A stretch of 64,000 nucleotides of DNA from Hydrogenimonas urashimensis. GTDB taxonomy: Bacteria; Campylobacterota; Campylobacteria; Campylobacterales; Hydrogenimonadaceae. The position numbers and the translations under genes are program-made. Numbering within the stretch: position 1 is the first letter of the stretch; each line of letters opens with the position of its first letter. Where the stretch lies: NCBI RefSeq assembly GCF_016593255.1, contig NZ_AP023212.1:1290001-1354000 (forward strand), read 5' to 3'. Below the pieces are notes generated by a model. The model did not search any database and was not told where the DNA came from. It saw nothing but the letters and a program-made list of their open reading frames with translations. This document shows positions 1,988 through 12,081 of the stretch, piece by piece.

Positions 1988-4549
1988 TCACGCCTTCTCC
2001 CCCAGCCATGCCATGAAGGTTTCAATCGGCATCGGCTTGCTGAAATAGTATCCCTGTGCCAGGTCGCACCCGAATTTTTTGAGAAAGGCGAGTTGCGTCT
2101 CGTTCTCCACCCCTTCCGCTACCGTCTTCATCCCGAAATGGGCGGCGATATCGATAATGGTCCGGGAGAGGACCTCGTCGTTGGGATTGATGCCGATATC
2201 TTCGACGAATCCCCGGTCGATTTTCAATGTTTTGATCGAAAGGTTCTTCAGGTAAGCAAGAGAGGAGTATCCGGTGCCGAAATCGTCGATACTGAATCTA
2301 AAGCCCATTTGGCGGAGTTCCTGGAGTTTCTTGTTGGTCTCTTTGAAGTTTTCGATAAAGACCGATTCGGTCATCTCCAATTCGATGCGGGAGGGGTCGA
2401 TCTCCCCTTTTTCCGCCATCTCTTTCACCATTTCGATGAAATCGCTCCGTACGAACTCTTTGATACTGACATTGACGGCCACATAGTCAAGAGGAAGCAC
2501 CATACTCTCCTGGGCGACACGTCTGAGAACCCACTGCCCCAGTTCGTGGATCAGGCCGCTCTCCTCGGCCAGAGGAATGAATATGCCCGGAGAGACCAGC
2601 CCGCGTTTGGGATGTTCCCACCGCAGCAGCGCCTCCGCGCCTACACATTTTCCCGTCGAAATCTCGATCTGAGGCTGATAGAGGAGTGTGAGCTGATTCT
2701 TTTCGATCGCATTGTGGAGCTCCTGCAGCAGTTCCGTCTTGTTCATCGTGCTCTTCTCCAGCTTGCTGTCGAAGATGCGCACGCCATTCTTGCCCGCCGA
2801 TTTCGCCTCGTACATCGCCACATCGGCCTCTTTGAGAAGATCGAAGAAATCGCGGTCATGGGTGAATAGCGTGATCCCGATGCTGACACTGAAGTGGAGT
2901 TTGCGCCCCTTGATCGCGAAGGGGCGCGCCACCTCTTCGCGTATCTTTCTGGCCACGATTTCGCTCTTCATCGCCGCCTCTTCGGCATCTCCCTCGATAT
3001 CCGAAAGCAGGATGACAAATTCATCCCCGCCGAGTCGGGTGACGATGTCTCCGGTACGCATCAGATTGGTCAGACGTTTGGCGAGCTGCTGCAACAGGTA
3101 GTCTCCCACATCGTGGCCCATCGAATCATTGATCTGCTTGAAGTTGTCCAGATCGAGGAAGAGAAGGGCGTTGGTCGTATGGTTGCGCTCGGCCCGGAGC
3201 ATCGCGATCTTGACATGCTCGAAGAGAAGTTTCCGCCTCGGAAGCCCCGTCAGCTCGTCGTAATAGGCCAGATAGTCCGCCCGCTCCCTTGCGATGCGCT
3301 CTTTGGTCACGTTGCGCCCGTAGAGGTTGACCCGCTCCTTGTCGAGGATGACGATATCGAACTGGTATACCGTCTCCTCATACCGCAGGTCGAGACTTTT
3401 ATGCTCCCCGCTGCAGACATTCTCCAGAAAACCTTCCCAGCGCTTCGGATCCGTATTCTCCAGCCCCACATGGATCATCCGCGCCGCATCGTTTTCGATC
3501 AGAATGGAATGGGAGTGGCAGGAGATCTGCATGACGGGATTGGGGTTTTGGATGTAAAACTGCGCGAACGATTCAATCTGTCGTTTGTGCTCCAATTCCT
3601 GGGAGATATCCTCGACGATACCGATCGCTCCCACGAGCCGGTTTTTCGAATCTTTCAGCGCCGTGGTTTTCATACGGATATAGACATCGATGTCGCTGGT
3701 CGTCGTATGGTACACTCCCTCGTAATAGCCATCTTCCAGTCCGTTGTAGTCGATCGGCATCCGGATCGCCGGCACGATGCGCCTGTCTTTGAGTTTTTCG
3801 AGATTGAAGCCGATCAGTCTCTCCCGGCTCGAACCGAACAGCTGGACGAAGTGCTGATTGACGTTGACGACATTGAACTCCTTGTCGTAGAAGAAGATCC
3901 CCACCGGAACATTGTCGAAAATCAGTTCGATCTCCGCCCGGTGAGCCCTGAGCGCACGGATCCAGTGCTCGTTCTCCCGCCGCAGCACCATCGCGTCGAC
4001 GATCGTTTTGTGTATCCTGCCCGAACTGGAGATCAAAAACGCGAGATAGATGACAACCATCACCCCCATCATCACTTCGATACCATGCGGACTGATCAGA
4101 AGCCACAGGGCGGTACCGCCGAGTGTGATCAGCACATAGGTGATCGCGGTGATCCGTTCCGAGGAGAGGGTCGTGATAGCACCCGAAGCCATCCCTCCCA
4201 TGACAAAGGCCATCAGAAAATCGTAGGCGATCCCCTGTTTGCCAAGAAAATACCACAGTCCGCTCACCCATACGACGGCACTGGCGAACATCCCTATCCA
4301 CTGCAGCACCTCCGCCCGCACCACGGGAATTTCGTCCTGATGCGCCTTGTAGTAGAGATAGATTCCAAGCCGATAGAGCATGGCGCCGACGACAATTCCG
4401 TACCAAATGACGGCATTTTTGCCCGATTTGGGCCAGTAGACGACAAGAACGACGAGTCCCGCCATGATATTGACGATAATGCTGAAGGGAATGGAGTCGT
4501 AGACCAGATCGATCAGGTCTTTTCGGATTTGCGGTTCGTACCGTTCCAT
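1988..4549 (-). CDS. Membrane PAS-GGDEF-EAL c-di-GMP enzyme
   Basis: This 853-residue membrane protein is predicted to make and/or degrade cyclic di-GMP. About six hydrophobic segments lie between residues 22 and 175, followed by a PAS sensor at about 203-320 and a second PAS-like region at about 325-420. The GGDEF domain covers about 430-595 and the EAL domain about 605-850. The GGDEF motif is intact at 507-511, with an RxxD inhibitory site (RTGD) five residues before it. The EAL motif is at 639-641, and further EAL-domain residues are present (the DDFGTG motif and the Lys of LKIDRG). Both activities could therefore be real. The gene starts one base after the stop of the S24 repressor gene, so the two are co-transcribed. 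Confidence 0.93.
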   Translation of the reverse strand: MERYEPQIRKDLIDLVYDSIPFSIIVNIMAGLVVLVVYWPKSGKNAVIWYGIVVGAMLYRLGIYLYYKAHQDEIPVVRAEVLQWIGMFASAVVWVSGLWYFLGKQGIAYDFLMAFVMGGMASGAITTLSSERITAITYVLITLGGTALWLLISPHGIEVMMGVMVVIYLAFLISSSGRIHKTIVDAMVLRRENEHWIRALRAHRAEIELIFDNVPVGIFFYDKEFNVVNVNQHFVQLFGSSRERLIGFNLEKLKDRRIVPAIRMPIDYNGLEDGYYEGVYHTTTSDIDVYIRMKTTALKDSKNRLVGAIGIVEDISQELEHKRQIESFAQFYIQNPNPVMQISCHSHSILIENDAARMIHVGLENTDPKRWEGFLENVCSGEHKSLDLRYEETVYQFDIVILDKERVNLYGRNVTKERIARERADYLAYYDELTGLPRRKLLFEHVKIAMLRAERNHTTNALLFLDLDNFKQINDSMGHDVGDYLLQQLAKRLTNLMRTGDIVTRLGGDEFVILLSDIEGDAEEAAMKSEIVARKIREEVARPFAIKGRKLHFSVSIGITLFTHDRDFFDLLKEADVAMYEAKSAGKNGVRIFDSKLEKSTMNKTELLQELHNAIEKNQLTLLYQPQIEISTGKCVGAEALLRWEHPKRGLVSPGIFIPLAEESGLIHELGQWVLRRVAQESMVLPLDYVAVNVSIKEFVRSDFIEMVKEMAEKGEIDPSRIELEMTESVFIENFKETNKKLQELRQMGFRFSIDDFGTGYSSLAYLKNLSIKTLKIDRGFVEDIGINPNDEVLSRTIIDIAAHFGMKTVAEGVENETQLAFLKKFGCDLAQGYYFSKPMPIETFMAWLGEKA

Positions 4550-6582: not shown

Positions 6583-6701
6583 AGTCGTTGGTCGTTGGTG
6601 AAACGGAAGCAGATGCTCCTCTTTTCTGTCGTGCAATTTCGCCAATTTCGCACAAACTTCCAATCAAAATCGGATCAACGCGCGCCGATGACCAATGACT
6701 A
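6583..6701. repeat. Imperfect inverted repeat of heptamer elements
   Basis: The plus strand at 6583-6598 contains two GTCGTTG-type heptamers in tandem. The minus strand at 6701-6686 contains a related pair (AGTCATTGGTCATCGG). The two arms match at 13 of 16 bases and face each other across about 87 bases. The right arm overlaps the stop codon of the macrodomain gene. No gene was found between the Y-polymerase stop (6579) and the right arm. Confidence 0.55.
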
Positions 6702-7217
6702 ATGAGCAGTCGCCTTCTCAAACACCTTCCGGCTCCTGTCGGAATGGAAGATGAAGGTCACATCCATATCCGGATGTGACTTTAGGAAATCCTTCACCGT
6801 TTTGTAGGCGATCTTCGCCGCCCGATCGGCGGGAAAGCCGTAGACCCCCGTGGAGATAGCGGGGAAAACGACGGAGTCGCACCCCAGTTCCACGGCAACT
6901 TTCAGGGAGTTTCGGTAGGCGTTGGCGAGCAGTTCGTCGCACCGGTCGCCACAACGTCCCCAGATGGGGCCGACGGTATGGATGACATACTGCGCGGGCA
7001 GGTTACCCGCTGTGGTCGCCACCGCTTCGCCGGTCGGCAGGCCGTCGGGGTATTGGGTCCGTCGGACCTCTTTGCACGCCGCCAGAATCGCCGGGCCGCC
7101 GGCGCGGTGGATCGCCCCGTCCACGCCACCGCCTCCCATCAACGACCTGTTGGCGGCATTGACGATGGCGCAAGCCTTCTCTTTCGTGATATCTCCGGCT
7201 TTAATGTGTATCGGCAT
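6699..7217 (-). CDS. Macrodomain protein (ADP-ribose / O-acetyl-ADP-ribose hydrolase type)
   Basis: This 172-residue single-domain macro protein of the YmdB/MacroD type binds or hydrolyses ADP-ribose derivatives. It shows the VNAAN segment, the GGGGVDGAIHRAGG loop, the HTVGPIW strand and the ISTGVYGFP phosphate loop, all expected for an active macrodomain. The chosen ATG shares its A with the TGA stop of the RelE-like toxin gene (TGATG) and has AGAGGTG upstream. A TTG one codon earlier is possible. Translation is therefore probably coupled to the toxin-antitoxin pair, and a role in reversing ADP-ribosylation or modulating the module is an inference. Confidence 0.88.
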   Translation of the reverse strand: MPIHIKAGDITKEKACAIVNAANRSLMGGGGVDGAIHRAGGPAILAACKEVRRTQYPDGLPTGEAVATTAGNLPAQYVIHTVGPIWGRCGDRCDELLANAYRNSLKVAVELGCDSVVFPAISTGVYGFPADRAAKIAYKTVKDFLKSHPDMDVTFIFHSDRSRKVFEKATAH

Positions 7218-7468
7218 CAATACACCTCTTTTCGATGGGCCACACGAACAAGTGTGATGATGAGCACATCTTCTTCTCTCACATAAATGATACGATAATT
7301 CCCCGCTCTCTTTCTAAATTTACCTCGATATTTTCCTTTCAGAGGTTTATCTCCGGAAAATTCGCCTTTTTCAAGTTGACCAATTTTTTTCCATACCAAT
7401 TCCAAATCTTTATGGTCAATTTTTTTCAATTCCTTGAACACGCTATGAGGAACGAGAACCTTATACAT
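7217..7468 (-). CDS. RelE/ParE-type toxin
   Basis: This 83-residue small basic protein has the RelE/ParE fold pattern. An N-terminal strand is followed by two helices, then KPLKGKYRGKFRKRAGNYRIIY and a C-terminal strand ending in HRKEVY. The spaced basic residues and the Tyr in the RIIYV strand resemble mRNA interferases such as RelE, though ParE-type gyrase inhibition cannot be excluded. The gene overlaps the antitoxin gene by eight bases and the macrodomain gene by one base. Confidence 0.88.
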   Translation of the reverse strand: MYKVLVPHSVFKELKKIDHKDLELVWKKIGQLEKGEFSGDKPLKGKYRGKFRKRAGNYRIIYVREEDVLIITLVRVAHRKEVY

Positions 7469-7758: not shown

Positions 7759-7818
7759 GATTCGCGGAGCGAATCATCATGCCCATTGTCTTTAAAAATC
7801 TTTTGTAGATACATTATA
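7759..7818 (-). promoter_or_regulatory. Promoter and dyad upstream of the toxin-antitoxin operon
   Basis: A perfect TATAAT reads leftwards at 7813-7818. It sits inside a partial palindrome (7806-7823) and overlaps the 3' end of the VWA gene. Downstream lies the perfect dyad GATTCGC-GGA-GCGAATC (7759-7775). Both dyads are candidate operators for the RHH antitoxin. No good -35 is seen. Confidence 0.4.
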
Positions 7819-8989
7819 CTACATGTGGATTCAAAAGTATCCTTTTTCCAAAGGGGACCTCTTTCTCTTCGGGCAGTACCCAGATCGTATCGTAAAACGG
7901 TTCCGTTTCGGGAAACCGCCCCTCTCCGTCGGTGAAATAGATCAGAAGTGCGGTCTGGGGCAGCTCTTTGTCTATGGTCTCGAACACCGGCCGAAAATCG
8001 GTGCCGCCGCCACCTTTGAGAGTGAAGTCGAGCACTTCGCCCGACCGGAACCGGTAGATACCCTGGATTTTGGCGTCGCATACCAGCAGATCCACTTCCG
8101 CATCGGGGAAGCTGAGCATCATCGCCTCCAGTTCGCCCATGAAAAGCCCCAGCAGTTTTTCGTCCACCGAGCCGCTGGAATCGATGGCGACGGTGACGGT
8201 GAGCCGCTCACTGGTCGTGGAAGGCAGATAGATGCCGTAAGCCAGCGCTTTTCTGTTGGGACGGGCGTAGGTGTAGTCGCTTTTGAGATGGCGGTGGATC
8301 GCCTGGTAGAGTTCGCTGCGCCAGTCGACGGAGCCTTGCACCCCTTTTTCGAAGAGCCGTTCCAGTCCGGCCGGCGTTTTGCCCTGATCCTTCGCACGTT
8401 TCAACGCCTCCTGCATGGCGTTGGCCCACATCTCTTCCAATGCCGGCTCCAGCTCCTGGGGTGGAAGGGGGAATTTCTCGCTTCCTTCTTGTTTTCGCTC
8501 TTTGGAAGGGGCCTGCTCTTTCTGGCGGTTTCTGTTCTGCTCGTTGAACCCTTCTTCGTTGCTCTCGTCGTCGTTGTACTCTTCGTTTTTGATCTCATCT
8601 TTCAAAACGGCGTAGATTGCTTCGGCGTACATGCCGGAAAAACGCGCCTCGAAGCGGGCACCCTCGGGTATGTGAAATCCGTTTTGCGCCAACAGGTCGT
8701 TGATGGCGTAATCGGTGGCGAGCTGCCAGAGCCACCCCTGGCGGGAGAGTTTGCGGTTTTCGTGGGAGAGAACATGGTGCATGACGCTGTTGGCCAGGGC
8801 AAACTCGACACTCTCCACGGGCACTTCGGCAATCCATTCGTCGTTGTATTGCAACACCCGTCCGTCGCTCAAAAAGGCTTCCACCTCGTCGCTGGACTCC
8901 ATCTTCAAGCGGCTGGCCAGCAGACCGAACCAGGGATTTCTCACCACCAGGCGCGTCTTGGCGCGGGCAATCTTCTCTTCGGGGTTCAT
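7814..8989 (-). CDS. VWA-domain protein (DUF2201-like) partner of MoxR ATPase
   Basis: This 391-residue protein has three parts. An N-terminal metallopeptidase-like region (about 15-130) has a degenerate His motif (HHVLSH at 71-76). A charged, Glu/Asn/Gln-rich linker (about 130-190) follows. The C-terminal von Willebrand A domain (about 260-390) has MIDAS residues DSSGS (270-274), the Thr of GGGGTD and the Asp of YFTDGEG. The preferred ATG overlaps the MoxR stop in an ATGA arrangement; a GTG ten codons upstream is the alternative. In MoxR/VWA pairs the ATPase loads or remodels a target through the VWA adaptor. The target here is unknown. Confidence 0.85.
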   Translation of the reverse strand: MNPEEKIARAKTRLVVRNPWFGLLASRLKMESSDEVEAFLSDGRVLQYNDEWIAEVPVESVEFALANSVMHHVLSHENRKLSRQGWLWQLATDYAINDLLAQNGFHIPEGARFEARFSGMYAEAIYAVLKDEIKNEEYNDDESNEEGFNEQNRNRQKEQAPSKERKQEGSEKFPLPPQELEPALEEMWANAMQEALKRAKDQGKTPAGLERLFEKGVQGSVDWRSELYQAIHRHLKSDYTYARPNRKALAYGIYLPSTTSERLTVTVAIDSSGSVDEKLLGLFMGELEAMMLSFPDAEVDLLVCDAKIQGIYRFRSGEVLDFTLKGGGGTDFRPVFETIDKELPQTALLIYFTDGEGRFPETEPFYDTIWVLPEEKEVPFGKRILLNPHVV

Positions 8990-9987
8990 GTCAGCAGGTA
9001 AGCGAACTTTTGTATCCACGTTTTGAAGCGGGGCGATTTCTCAAGCAGGACCCCTTTGTGCTGCAGCTCCTTGACGATCATCACCGAAAACTCCGGCGGC
9101 AGTTCCATCAGGTAGGCCAGCAGATACTCCAGCCTCTCCTTGGGCGTGTCGGCATCGATACGCTGTAGAATCATCGAAGCGAGCACATGGAGGGCGTTTG
9201 GGTCTTCGGGAATCCCGCACGTCTCCCCCTCCAGCAGCGCCTCCACGTCCGGCAGATCCTTGGCGGCGGCCCGCCAGCTCAGAAATTCCGCCGCCAGCTC
9301 CTCCCCAATACTTCCGGCAATGAGCGGCATCAGCAGTTCCGCCTCCGGCGTCGATTTCAAAATTTTGTCCACATACTCCCAGCTTCGGGGTGTGGCGAAA
9401 GAGCGATGGGACGATGTGGCATCGAACATGAAAAGGGCGTCGGGACGGGCGGCGATGAATCCGACGATGGCGGGGTCGATCCCACGTTCCGTCGCCCATC
9501 GCCGCCACTGGGCGGGATCGCTCTGCATCCGCAGATGGACGAAACGGTTGGCCAAAGGCGCGGGCATGCGGTAGACCACCCCCCGGTCGCTCTCCCTATT
9601 GCCCGCCGCCACGATGGCCCACCCTTCGGGCAGTTCGTACTCACCGATTTTTCGATCCAGTATCAGCTGGTAGGCGCTCGCCTGCACCATCGGCGCGGCG
9701 GTATTGAGCTCGTCGAGAAACAAAATCCCCTCCGCCACGCTGCCATCGGGCAGAAAGGCGGGCGGCGCCCAGACCGCCTTGTGGGCCTGCTGGTCGAAAA
9801 AGGGAATCCCCCGCAAATCGGTGGGATCGAGCAGAGAGAGCCGCAGGTCGACAAAGCCGATCCCCTTCTCTTCGGCGATTTGCCGGACGATGGAGGATTT
9901 GCCGATACCCGGTGGCCCCCAGAGAAAGAGCGGCACCCGCTCCTCCACCAGGTGGGCGACCGCCGTTTTCGCTTCATTTGGTTTCAA
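8986..9987 (-). CDS. MoxR-family AAA+ ATPase
   Basis: This 333-residue chaperone-like ATPase has Walker A GPPGIGKSS at about 24-32, Walker B ILFLDEL at about 88-94 and a sensor-1 AAGN near 130, followed by an Arg-rich lid region. The start is a TTG preceded by AAAGGA at eight bases; no better ATG fits. The 3' end overlaps the VWA gene by four bases, so equimolar production is likely. It stands 55 bases after the BRCT-like/LRV gene in the same operon. Confidence 0.92.
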   Translation of the reverse strand: MKPNEAKTAVAHLVEERVPLFLWGPPGIGKSSIVRQIAEEKGIGFVDLRLSLLDPTDLRGIPFFDQQAHKAVWAPPAFLPDGSVAEGILFLDELNTAAPMVQASAYQLILDRKIGEYELPEGWAIVAAGNRESDRGVVYRMPAPLANRFVHLRMQSDPAQWRRWATERGIDPAIVGFIAARPDALFMFDATSSHRSFATPRSWEYVDKILKSTPEAELLMPLIAGSIGEELAAEFLSWRAAAKDLPDVEALLEGETCGIPEDPNALHVLASMILQRIDADTPKERLEYLLAYLMELPPEFSVMIVKELQHKGVLLEKSPRFKTWIQKFAYLLT

Positions 9988-10008
9988 GAGACAATCCTTT
10001 GAATTTCG

Positions 10009-10022
10009 GTGATTGGTGATTG
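10009..10022. repeat. Tandem heptamer repeat
   Basis: Two exact copies of GTGATTG stand head to tail in the gap between the LRV gene and the MoxR gene. It is one of several period-7 tracts in this part of the window. Confidence 0.5.
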
Positions 10023-10042
10023 GAGAGTTGGATGAATGGCGG

Positions 10043-11428
10043 TCATTGCATTCCCAGGTTTTGGCGTATATAGTCTCCGAACGCTTCGTTACGCTTGAGA
10101 ATCTGGTTCAGTTCGCCATCGGTCTGGTAGGCAAGCAGAATCTCGATGGGGGTGGCCGGGTTGGCGGCCAGGGCTTTCTGGATGTCTTTCTCCTTGATTT
10201 TGGAAAAGTTGCGCAAAAGCCGCTCGGGGGTGGAGGGGTTTTGGGCCAGCGCGACATAGAGCGCTTTGTCCCGTACCCGCGTAAGTCGCTCCAATAGCGC
10301 CTTGGGCGCAGAGGGGTTGCCCGCCAGGGCACGCAGGATGGATGGCATGCGTGTCCGCTCCAACCTCTCCGGCAGCTCGACGGGCAACGCCTCGTTGGAA
10401 GCCAGGGCGACGAGAACGCTTTCGATACCGCTCTCCATCAGCTTTTCGAACGCCTCTTTTTCCAGCCGCTCGTTGGAAGCCAGGGCGCACAGTATCTCCT
10501 CCTCCTTTTCATCCACCAGCCGTTGGAGCGTCTTTGCATCGAAGGGTTGATGGGTCGCCACGGATTGGCGAACCTTCGGCGGTCCGGTTTGCATCAAGGT
10601 TTCGCGCACCGCATCCGAGAGAGAGGGGTTTCTCGCCAATCCTTCCAGTACCCACACATCCTCTTCTCTCACCAGCCGCTCCTGCATCGCTTCGGGCAGG
10701 GAAGGGTGGGCCGCGAGCAATCCCCGCAGTCTGGTCTCATCTTTTTGCAAAAAGGAAAGAAGCAGCGGTTCGGGAAGGGCGGGGTTGGAAAGCAACGCTT
10801 CATGCAGCGATCTGGGCATCCAGGCATCCTGGCTTCGCTGGGTGATTTCATAGTCGGGAATCTTGGTCAGCGCCTCCAGAAGCGCCGGATTGTCAGCCTG
10901 TGCCGCCACCAGAAAGAGCCCGACGGGCGAATACTGGATATTGTGGTTTCTCTTAATGTCAGGATAGAAACGGGCCACCACACTGCCTGCGATATCGCGG
11001 TTTTCATCGCTTTCGTAAGGCCCCAGACCTTCCCAGTCGTAGCGCTTGAGAATGTCGCAGAAGAGGTCGTCGCCGATGGCCGGGTTGTGCAGCAGATTGA
11101 TCATCCGCTCTCTGTTTGGAAAAAGGGTGAGGCTGGCCAGCAGCGATTCGGCGTCGATATGGGTGGCGTACCACCGCTCCAACGCTTCCAGCGTCACCAC
11201 CGGTATGCCCGCTTTTTCCTGCGCGTCGCTCCACGCCTCTTCCACCGGATTGACCAGCCGTCCAAGAACGATAAGGCCAATCTCTTCGTCCTCCATCGAC
11301 TTCGCTCTTTGGGCCCCCACACGATCCAAAAAGAGTTCGATATCCTCTTCGCTCATCGTCCGGGTACGCCCCAGAAACAAAACCCGCTTCCCGGCAACCT
11401 GCGCCACAGCCTCTTCCAGTCTCACCAT
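10043..11428 (-). CDS. BRCT-like domain plus leucine-rich-variant (LRV) repeat protein
   Basis: This 461-residue cytosolic protein begins with a region at about 8-80 that resembles a BRCT domain. It has GKRVLFLGRT, a two-helix layout, a GLIVLG strand, then GIPVVTLEALERW with the typical late Trp. The rest is a solenoid of repeats of about 22-24 residues with the pattern ALAxNPxxPxxLLxRL, as in LRV or HEAT-like proteins, clearest at about 255-440. The ATG at 11428 is chosen because it follows the ankyrin stop by one base; the open frame extends further upstream, inside the ankyrin gene. It is probably a scaffold or target-recognition partner for the MoxR/VWA pair (inference). Confidence 0.75.
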   Translation of the reverse strand: MVRLEEAVAQVAGKRVLFLGRTRTMSEEDIELFLDRVGAQRAKSMEDEEIGLIVLGRLVNPVEEAWSDAQEKAGIPVVTLEALERWYATHIDAESLLASLTLFPNRERMINLLHNPAIGDDLFCDILKRYDWEGLGPYESDENRDIAGSVVARFYPDIKRNHNIQYSPVGLFLVAAQADNPALLEALTKIPDYEITQRSQDAWMPRSLHEALLSNPALPEPLLLSFLQKDETRLRGLLAAHPSLPEAMQERLVREEDVWVLEGLARNPSLSDAVRETLMQTGPPKVRQSVATHQPFDAKTLQRLVDEKEEEILCALASNERLEKEAFEKLMESGIESVLVALASNEALPVELPERLERTRMPSILRALAGNPSAPKALLERLTRVRDKALYVALAQNPSTPERLLRNFSKIKEKDIQKALAANPATPIEILLAYQTDGELNQILKRNEAFGDYIRQNLGMQ

Positions 11429-11429
11429 C

Positions 11430-11924
11430 TCAGAAAGGGTTCTCCATCTTCGCTTCGATCCACCGGCTCGCCCGCTCTCTACGGAGCCTTTTCGCGAAAT
11501 CGGCGGCCGTCCAACCGAATTCATCCTGGGCGTAAATGTCCGCCCCGTTGGCAAAAAGGAGTTCCATCATCTCGATATAGTCGAAAGAGGCGGCCAGCAT
11601 TAAAACCGTCATACCACTCTTTCGGCGTGTCGTCGCCGGATCGAGCCCTTTTTCGATGAAAAGCTCCACCAGGTCCAAGCGGTTCTTCTCCACCGCCTCA
11701 TCCAGCAGGCTTACCCCCTCTTCCGTCGTCCACGTCAGGTCGGCACCCCGCGCCAGGAGCAGCTCCACCATCTTTCTGGATGCGCCGCTCTTGATGGCGA
11801 CTAAAAGCAGCGGCCACCCTCTCTCATCGGTCATGTTTGCGTCAGCCGCTTCCAGCAGACGTTCGACTTCGTTTAACGCATCGGCTTTCACCGCTTCGAT
11901 CAATTTATTTTTATTATCATTCAT
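11430..11924 (-). CDS. Ankyrin-repeat protein
   Basis: This 164-residue protein consists of four or five ankyrin repeats (for example GWPLLLVAIKSGASRKMVELLLARGADL and GMTVLMLAASFDYIEMMELLFANGADI). It has no signal peptide or membrane segment and is probably a protein-binding module. It is the first gene of the four-gene operon with the BRCT-like/LRV, MoxR and VWA genes, one base from the next start. An AT-rich tract with heptamer repeats precedes it. Confidence 0.88.
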   Translation of the reverse strand: MNDNKNKLIEAVKADALNEVERLLEAADANMTDERGWPLLLVAIKSGASRKMVELLLARGADLTWTTEEGVSLLDEAVEKNRLDLVELFIEKGLDPATTRRKSGMTVLMLAASFDYIEMMELLFANGADIYAQDEFGWTAADFAKRLRRERASRWIEAKMENPF

Positions 11925-12004: not shown

Positions 12005-12081
12005 TGGTGACCCCGGCGCGATTCGAACGCGCGGCCTTCGGATTAGGAATCCGATGCTCTATCCTGCTGAGCTACGGGGTC
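12005..12081 (-). tRNA. tRNA-Arg (anticodon CCT)
   Basis: A 77-base cloverleaf has acceptor pairs GACCCCG/CGGGGTC, discriminator A, encoded CCA and T-loop GTTCGAATC. The seven-base anticodon loop TTCCTAA gives anticodon CCT (reads AGG). It stands alone, next to the accessory islet, and could have served as an integration site. Confidence 0.95.

Follow-up and report, generated by a model that had tools for sequence, protein, structure and literature searches.

A three-gene cassette of Campylobacterales combines a MoxR ATPase and a DUF2201-type VWA protein with a predicted BRCT-LRV protein

Introduction

MoxR-VWA machines are widespread, and their clients are mostly not known. The genes of known MoxR systems usually adjoin those of the client, as with NorCB, Rubisco and CO dehydrogenase. 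NorQ-NorD, CbbQ-CbbO, CoxD-CoxE and RavA-ViaA resemble the locus studied here in that a MoxR AAA+ protein with intact motifs precedes a VWA protein whose metal site is intact. One report on NorQD describes the VWA protein as engaging the MoxR pore, with ATP turnover twisting its linker and remodelling the client (PMC13036017). MoxR and vWA proteins also occur in the VMAP ternary systems, whose gene order is third component, MoxR, vWA (PMC7159879).

The locus lies in a stretch of 64,000 nucleotides from Hydrogenimonas urashimensis (contig NZ_AP023212.1, positions 1,290,001 to 1,354,000), referred to here as the window. It has genes for an ankyrin protein, a protein with a BRCT-like domain and LRV repeats (BRL), a MoxR-type ATPase and a VWA protein, which an earlier note on this DNA had read as one four-gene unit.

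Results

Gene layout of the locus

The four genes were found where the earlier note had placed them, with the junctions that it had described, and all lie on the minus strand (Table 1). The ankyrin and BRL genes were separated by 1 base (TGAGATG), 55 bases lay between the BRL and MoxR genes, and the MoxR and VWA genes overlapped by 4 bases (ATGA). Homologues at 25-90% identity were present in dozens of genomes, which indicated that these reading frames were not chance. The cassette sits in a ribosomal-protein/rpoC neighbourhood; in the window, the genes of a toxin and a macro-domain protein lie downstream of it, and a tRNA gene lies upstream of the ankyrin gene.

Table 1. Coordinates of the features of the locus (window positions) and of the related class II loci.
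Feature	Position	Strand	Description
Ankyrin protein	11430-11924	minus	164 aa; Pfam ankyrin 6.7e-22
BRL (BRCT-like+LRV)	10043-11428	minus	461 aa; predicted BRCT, conserved helical middle region, LRV solenoid
BRCT domain of BRL (predicted)	11162..11404	minus	residues 9-89; b-a-b-b-a-b-a; AF2 model and LigA/RFC1 matches
Helical middle region of BRL	10895..11158	minus	residues 91-178; E/D-N-D/E-N-R-D and RFY motifs
LRV solenoid of BRL	10046..10894	minus	residues 179-461; Pfam LRV_2/LRV, structural match to 1LRV
MoxR-type AAA+ ATPase	8986-9987	minus	333 aa, TTG start; Pfam AAA_3, alignment, tree
DUF2201_N + DUF2201 (VWA) protein	7814-8989	minus	391 aa from ATG; Pfam, alignment, VWA fold matches
Degenerate zincin motif of DUF2201_N	8762..8791	minus	residues 67-76 NSVMHHVLSH; relatives HExxHxxxxH
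VWA metal site (MIDAS), DxSxS...T...D	7928..8182	minus	D270, S272, S274, T330, D354; invariant
tRNA-Arg (CCT)	12005-12081		between fusA and the ankyrin gene, close upstream of the latter
ParE-type toxin gene	7217-7468		downstream of the cassette
Macro-domain gene	6699-7220		downstream of the cassette
Class II pair loci	L079, L081-L083, L085, L087-L090, L163, L164, L167-L170, L175, L176		MoxR-DUF2201 pairs

Domain structure of BRL

In the BRL sequence, Pfam matched LRV_2 (1.6e-10) and LRV (3e-7), the BRCT model (PF00533) gave no match at E<=0.5, and nothing was found by PDB sequence searches. An hhalign comparison with the LigA BRCT, a single comparison, was weak (prob 51, E 1.5e-4).

The AlphaFold2 model, built as a single chain on an alignment of 32 relatives, had a mean pLDDT of 93.5, and residues 1-90 (mostly 82-94) showed the BRCT order of elements. 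Foldseek matched the model to the DNA ligase A entry 9a6z (prob 1.00, 82 columns). In VIA-align 2, residues 9-89 were superposed on the C-terminal BRCT of LigA (9a6z_B 593-668) with Z 9.0 and an rmsd of 2.9 Å over 76 residues, residues 9-90 on the BRCT of RFC1 (7u1a_A 156-233) with Z 7.6 and 3.4 Å over 78 residues, and residues 180-451 on the LRV solenoid 1LRV with Z 9.7. The predicted structure therefore confirmed residues 9-89 as a BRCT fold. The BRCT-like domain that the earlier note had suggested for the N-terminus was borne out by structure prediction (LigA Z 9.0, RFC1 Z 7.6), as was its LRV solenoid by Pfam and the 1LRV match; for residues 1-90 this agreement came from the structure, whereas the Pfam sequence models gave none.

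In the pocket of the predicted BRCT domain G20 was invariant, but the S/T that precedes it in LigA-type phosphate pockets was Leu (LFLGK/R), so phosphate binding cannot be assumed. The middle region was the best conserved part of BRL, with a mean column entropy of 1.70 versus 2.08 for the BRCT domain and 2.1-2.4 for the LRV repeats, and residues 91-178 are a candidate contact surface for the MoxR-VWA machine. BRL as a whole evolves fastest of the triad (25-35% identity between families, versus about 50% for MoxR), and neither Pfam nor the AlphaFold2 model showed a catalytic domain or cofactor motif in it.

In the literature searched, the coverage of which was partial, BRCT was not found together with "leucine rich repeat variant", and no description was found of a BRCT-plus-helical-repeat subunit of a MoxR-VWA machine. 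Other LRV proteins were observed. A second, short LRV protein of ~200 aa with no room for a BRCT domain (G000:C1:1586299-1586667) is widespread in the order, and the Aeromonas hydrophila plasmid pMAH4 (L207:3923-6030) encodes two adjoining LRV-repeat proteins annotated as hypothetical.

The MoxR and VWA proteins

The MoxR protein matched AAA_3 in Pfam (3.8e-8; 33.7 bits versus a cut-off of 27), and its Walker motifs A (GPPGIGKS) and B (LFLDE), GN motif (sensor 1) and Arg residues were invariant in relatives. The protein encoded next to it matched DUF2201_N (1.3e-39) and DUF2201 (VWA-like; 4.8e-26, 91.7 bits). Its predicted structure had a pLDDT of 72 and was used for the VWA fold only; with it, Foldseek found VWA folds including that of NorQD. 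The VWA domain comprises residues 265-386 of 391, relatives have the same length, and the protein ends with this domain, with no C-terminal effector domain. An AAA_3 protein with intact motifs beside a DUF2201 VWA protein with an intact MIDAS supported the suggestion of the earlier note that these two proteins form a remodelling pair.

HExxH was present in 25 of 28 DUF2201 proteins from outside Campylobacterota and in 0 of those of class I or II (classes as in the MoxR tree below). The class II proteins of Campylobacterota have lost the Glu; those of class I lack both this residue and the first His (the protein of the window reads NSxxH) and retain the following His and Arg. As judged from these alignments, the metallopeptidase motif of DUF2201_N has been destroyed, and the VWA metal site and the AAA+ motifs are intact, a combination consistent with an ATP-driven remodeller that has lost its cutting activity. 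The literature searched, again of partial coverage, yielded no link of DUF2201 to MoxR.

Co-occurrence and gene order of BRL, MoxR and VWA

BRL was sought in 150 Campylobacterales genomes, many of them draft assemblies. Full-length BRL was found in 34 of them and class Ia MoxR in 32; 31 genomes had both, 3 BRL only, 1 MoxR only and 115 neither (Fisher p 1.5e-27, uncorrected for kinship). BRL was at a contig end in two of the BRL-only genomes (G131 and G038, the third being G142), and the MoxR-only genome, G095, is a contig fragment. Within the phylum, full-length BRL occurred only in the order of the window.

In 28 of 32 evaluable loci, MoxR lay downstream of BRL, on its strand and no more than 0.9 kb away (within 250 bp in 24), and the VWA gene usually came after MoxR. 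In the split loci of G141, G130, G106, G006 and G118 the VWA gene, or MoxR plus VWA, lay elsewhere in the genome; in G081 only a MoxR fragment remains, and in Sulfurovum-type genomes the VWA gene was often unlinked. An apparent BRL-MoxR gene fusion in G105 (L040; one 816-aa frame) was rejected, as its linker is a run of N. The neighbours of the cassette differed between families. Together, these data showed that BRL, MoxR and VWA genes are inherited, kept and absent together, as a three-gene cassette conserved across several families of sulfur-/hydrogen-oxidising Campylobacterales.

Individual loci had further neighbours. In Sulfurovum-like L074 (6116-10007) and L073, an unlinked class Ia VWA gene was followed by a MotA/ExbB-like and OmpA/MotB-like gene pair. 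BRL was the last gene of a PqiA/PqiB(MlaD)/PqiC-like operon in L046-L048, in one case with 4-base overlaps. In L049 (8570-9163), a gene placed between BRL and MoxR but in the opposite orientation encoded a small protein that by eye resembles ADP-ribosyltransferases (no Pfam match).

Genomes without the triad and the ankyrin gene

Two genomes of the same genus that are 99% complete, G054 and G117, had neither BRL nor a MoxR of the class Ia kind, and no DUF2201 protein was found in them. G054 had rpoC - rpsL - fusA - ankyrin gene - Y-family polymerase - S24 regulator - GGDEF/EAL gene in unbroken order; in G117 rpoC - rpsL - rpsG - fusA and polymerase - S24 - GGDEF/EAL were intact, with the ankyrin gene between them (contig 3876-4352). 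Only the triad was absent, the ankyrin gene and both flanks being present. The polymerase and S24 regulator of the window were considered as a functional clue and rejected, because both stay where the triad is absent.

The ankyrin gene adjoined the triad, on the same strand, only in the genus of the window. Its orthologues in other families (30-37% identity) were located elsewhere, beside an S24-type regulator in L199, L201 and L202 and near cytochrome genes in L198 and L200. Its retention without the triad and the location of its orthologues indicated that the ankyrin gene is a neighbour outside the conserved unit. The four-gene unit of the earlier note thus reduces to three genes: the neighbourhood survey upheld the linkage of one proposed scaffold, BRL, to the MoxR/VWA pair (MoxR downstream in 28/32 loci), but found the ankyrin scaffold linked in this genus only.

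A separate ankyrin family was seen near MoxR-VWA pairs of nif regions (L083:15913-16401, L079:17768-18238, L082:13219-13725, L203:4434-4868). These proteins were rejected as counterparts of the ankyrin protein of the window, as they belong to a different orthologous group.

MoxR classes and their distribution

A MoxR tree of 119 rows, made by a quick method, placed all Campylobacterales class I sequences in one group. BRL occurred throughout this group except in an 11-row subclade, class Ib, which is sister to the genus of the window; for some rows labelled in the tree as without BRL, the label merely reflects a contig end, Ns or an unlinked copy. nifH was present in 5/5 genomes with class Ib and 11/11 with class II MoxR (two of the 11 partial), and absent from 27/32 class Ia genomes. 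NifE- or NifA-like genes lay beside several class Ib and class II pairs. The nif association thus belongs to the sister classes and not to class Ia.

The class II MoxR-DUF2201 pair recurrently had a ~235-aa protein encoded downstream and a ~109-aa protein upstream, and its carriers among the 150 genomes were all nifH-positive. It looks like an undescribed nitrogenase-linked MoxR-VWA system.

In a cross-phylum survey of the best 80 MoxR loci, the MoxR-DUF2201 pair was common outside Campylobacterota and had there neither BRL nor a constant third gene; the survey was keyed on MoxR, so that a BRL beside a diverged MoxR outside this phylum could be missed.

Discussion

A proposed remodelling chaperone

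We consider it probable, and hold with moderate confidence, that BRL, MoxR and the DUF2201 VWA protein constitute a three-component, ATP-driven and non-proteolytic remodelling chaperone. The MoxR ring and VWA protein would act like NorQ-NorD or CbbQ-CbbO, in that the VWA protein would grip a peptide via its metal site while MoxR, hydrolysing ATP, twists or pulls that peptide. BRL would be a dedicated receptor whose BRCT domain and solenoid dock the target and present it to the machine, which the conserved middle region of BRL may contact. The proposal of the earlier note that BRL is the likely target reader gained support from its almost one-to-one coupling to its MoxR, and we infer a receptor rather than a regulator or client. 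The most likely target would be an assembled enzyme complex of the host, not nitrogenase, on which sulfur/hydrogen-oxidising Campylobacterales depend under some conditions, and the outcome would be maturation or reactivation, not proteolysis. The cassette appears dispensable, because it is absent from some relatives. The confinement of the sister pairs to nifH-positive genomes speaks for a general role in enzyme maturation.

Alternative explanations

The earlier note had raised a conflict role for these genes, and the order of the BRL cassette is indeed that of the VMAP ternary systems (PMC7159879). That the cassette is a ternary MoxR-vWA system for conflict or phage defence is nevertheless very improbable, in that no VMAP, iSTAND, FtsH or beta-propeller component scored above the Pfam cut-off (bpMoxR reached 18.5 bits on MoxR versus 27), the VWA protein has no effector domain, and PADLOC matched no defence system, the ankyrin protein sharing only ankyrin repeats with some of its models. 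BRL was not found in viral contigs or in the phage and plasmid collections; LRV proteins encoded by plasmids of Aeromonas, Lactococcus and cyanobacteria matched the repeats only, and the Aeromonas protein examined had no room for a BRCT domain. The distribution of the cassette follows families, and its ribosomal-protein/rpoC neighbourhood also counts against a defence role. If all four genes did form one unit, with the ankyrin protein selecting targets alongside BRL in this genus at least, this would account for the 1-base junction between the ankyrin gene and BRL and the shared strand in most triad-carrying genomes of the genus. We regard such a unit as very unlikely given the retention of the ankyrin gene in two near-complete genomes without the triad (G054, G117) and the separate location of its orthologues in other families, several of them next to an S24-type regulator.

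Among solved folds, those closest to the N-terminus of BRL come from two BRCT domains that act on DNA, in LigA and RFC1, which raises the question of a DNA-linked remodeller, with the BRCT domain docking on DNA or on a DNA-bound replication or repair protein that MoxR-VWA evicts or reshapes. Sulfuricurvum-like genomes have an ExoX/DnaQ-like exonuclease gene upstream and a PIF1-like helicase gene directly after VWA, and Sulfurimonas has a helicase one gene away. Such a role is unlikely in our judgment, however, as the helicase and exonuclease genes are linked to the cassette in one family only, the Y-family polymerase and S24 regulator of the window persist in the triad-less G054 and G117 and are plain synteny, and BRL has Leu in place of the S/T of the phosphate pocket. 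That the BRCT domain recognises a DNA end, or else a protein that is DNA-bound or modified, so that the MoxR-VWA machine acts on nucleoprotein complexes, is a distinctly doubtful proposition; to our knowledge, this client class has so far not been attributed to MoxR/VWA systems. Similarly doubtful is a function of BRL separate from the machine, which would mature BRL or be inhibited by it. The rapid evolution of BRL relative to MoxR (25-35% versus about 50% identity) and the tendency of known MoxR systems to adjoin a client gene would suit BRL as client or regulator, but it has no catalytic domain or cofactor motif needing maturation.

Significance and comparison with known systems

With BRL as the probable receptor of a remodelling chaperone, the cassette would mark a lineage in which a MoxR-VWA machine gained a dedicated, co-inherited BRCT-solenoid partner while its VWA protein lost the protease motif, and it would offer a natural way into target choice by such machines. 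The nifH-restricted sister pairs hint at an unstudied MoxR-VWA role in the nitrogenase biology of Campylobacterota.

The LRV-repeat solenoid fold of BRL is that of the Azotobacter vinelandii protein 1LRV (Z 9.7). The two differ at the N-terminus, where 1LRV has a 4Fe-4S part and BRL its predicted BRCT domain.

The VMAP, iSTAND, FtsH and beta-propeller MoxR-vWA systems likewise have three components in the same gene order (PMC7159879). BRL is none of their third components, and their vWA proteins carry variable C-terminal effectors (PMC7159879), whereas that of the BRL cassette has none. Unlike these ternary conflict systems, the BRL cassette is single-copy and chromosomal and follows bacterial families.

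Closer in composition are the MoxR-DUF2201 pairs of Desulfovibrio, Thiobacillus and Clostridia, in which a homologous MoxR and a DUF2201_N+DUF2201 protein are encoded adjacently in the same order. The pairs of other phyla differ in that they mostly keep HExxH and have no BRL, and their upstream genes vary by phylum.

Compared with the MoxR/VWA co-chaperones, the BRL cassette has no enzyme client encoded beside it, its VWA protein belongs to the DUF2201 type and has a defunct metallopeptidase domain, and a third, BRCT-LRV, protein appears obligate. Several of the sister pairs of the BRL-linked MoxR-VWA resemble these co-chaperones in lying in metalloenzyme (nif) clusters.
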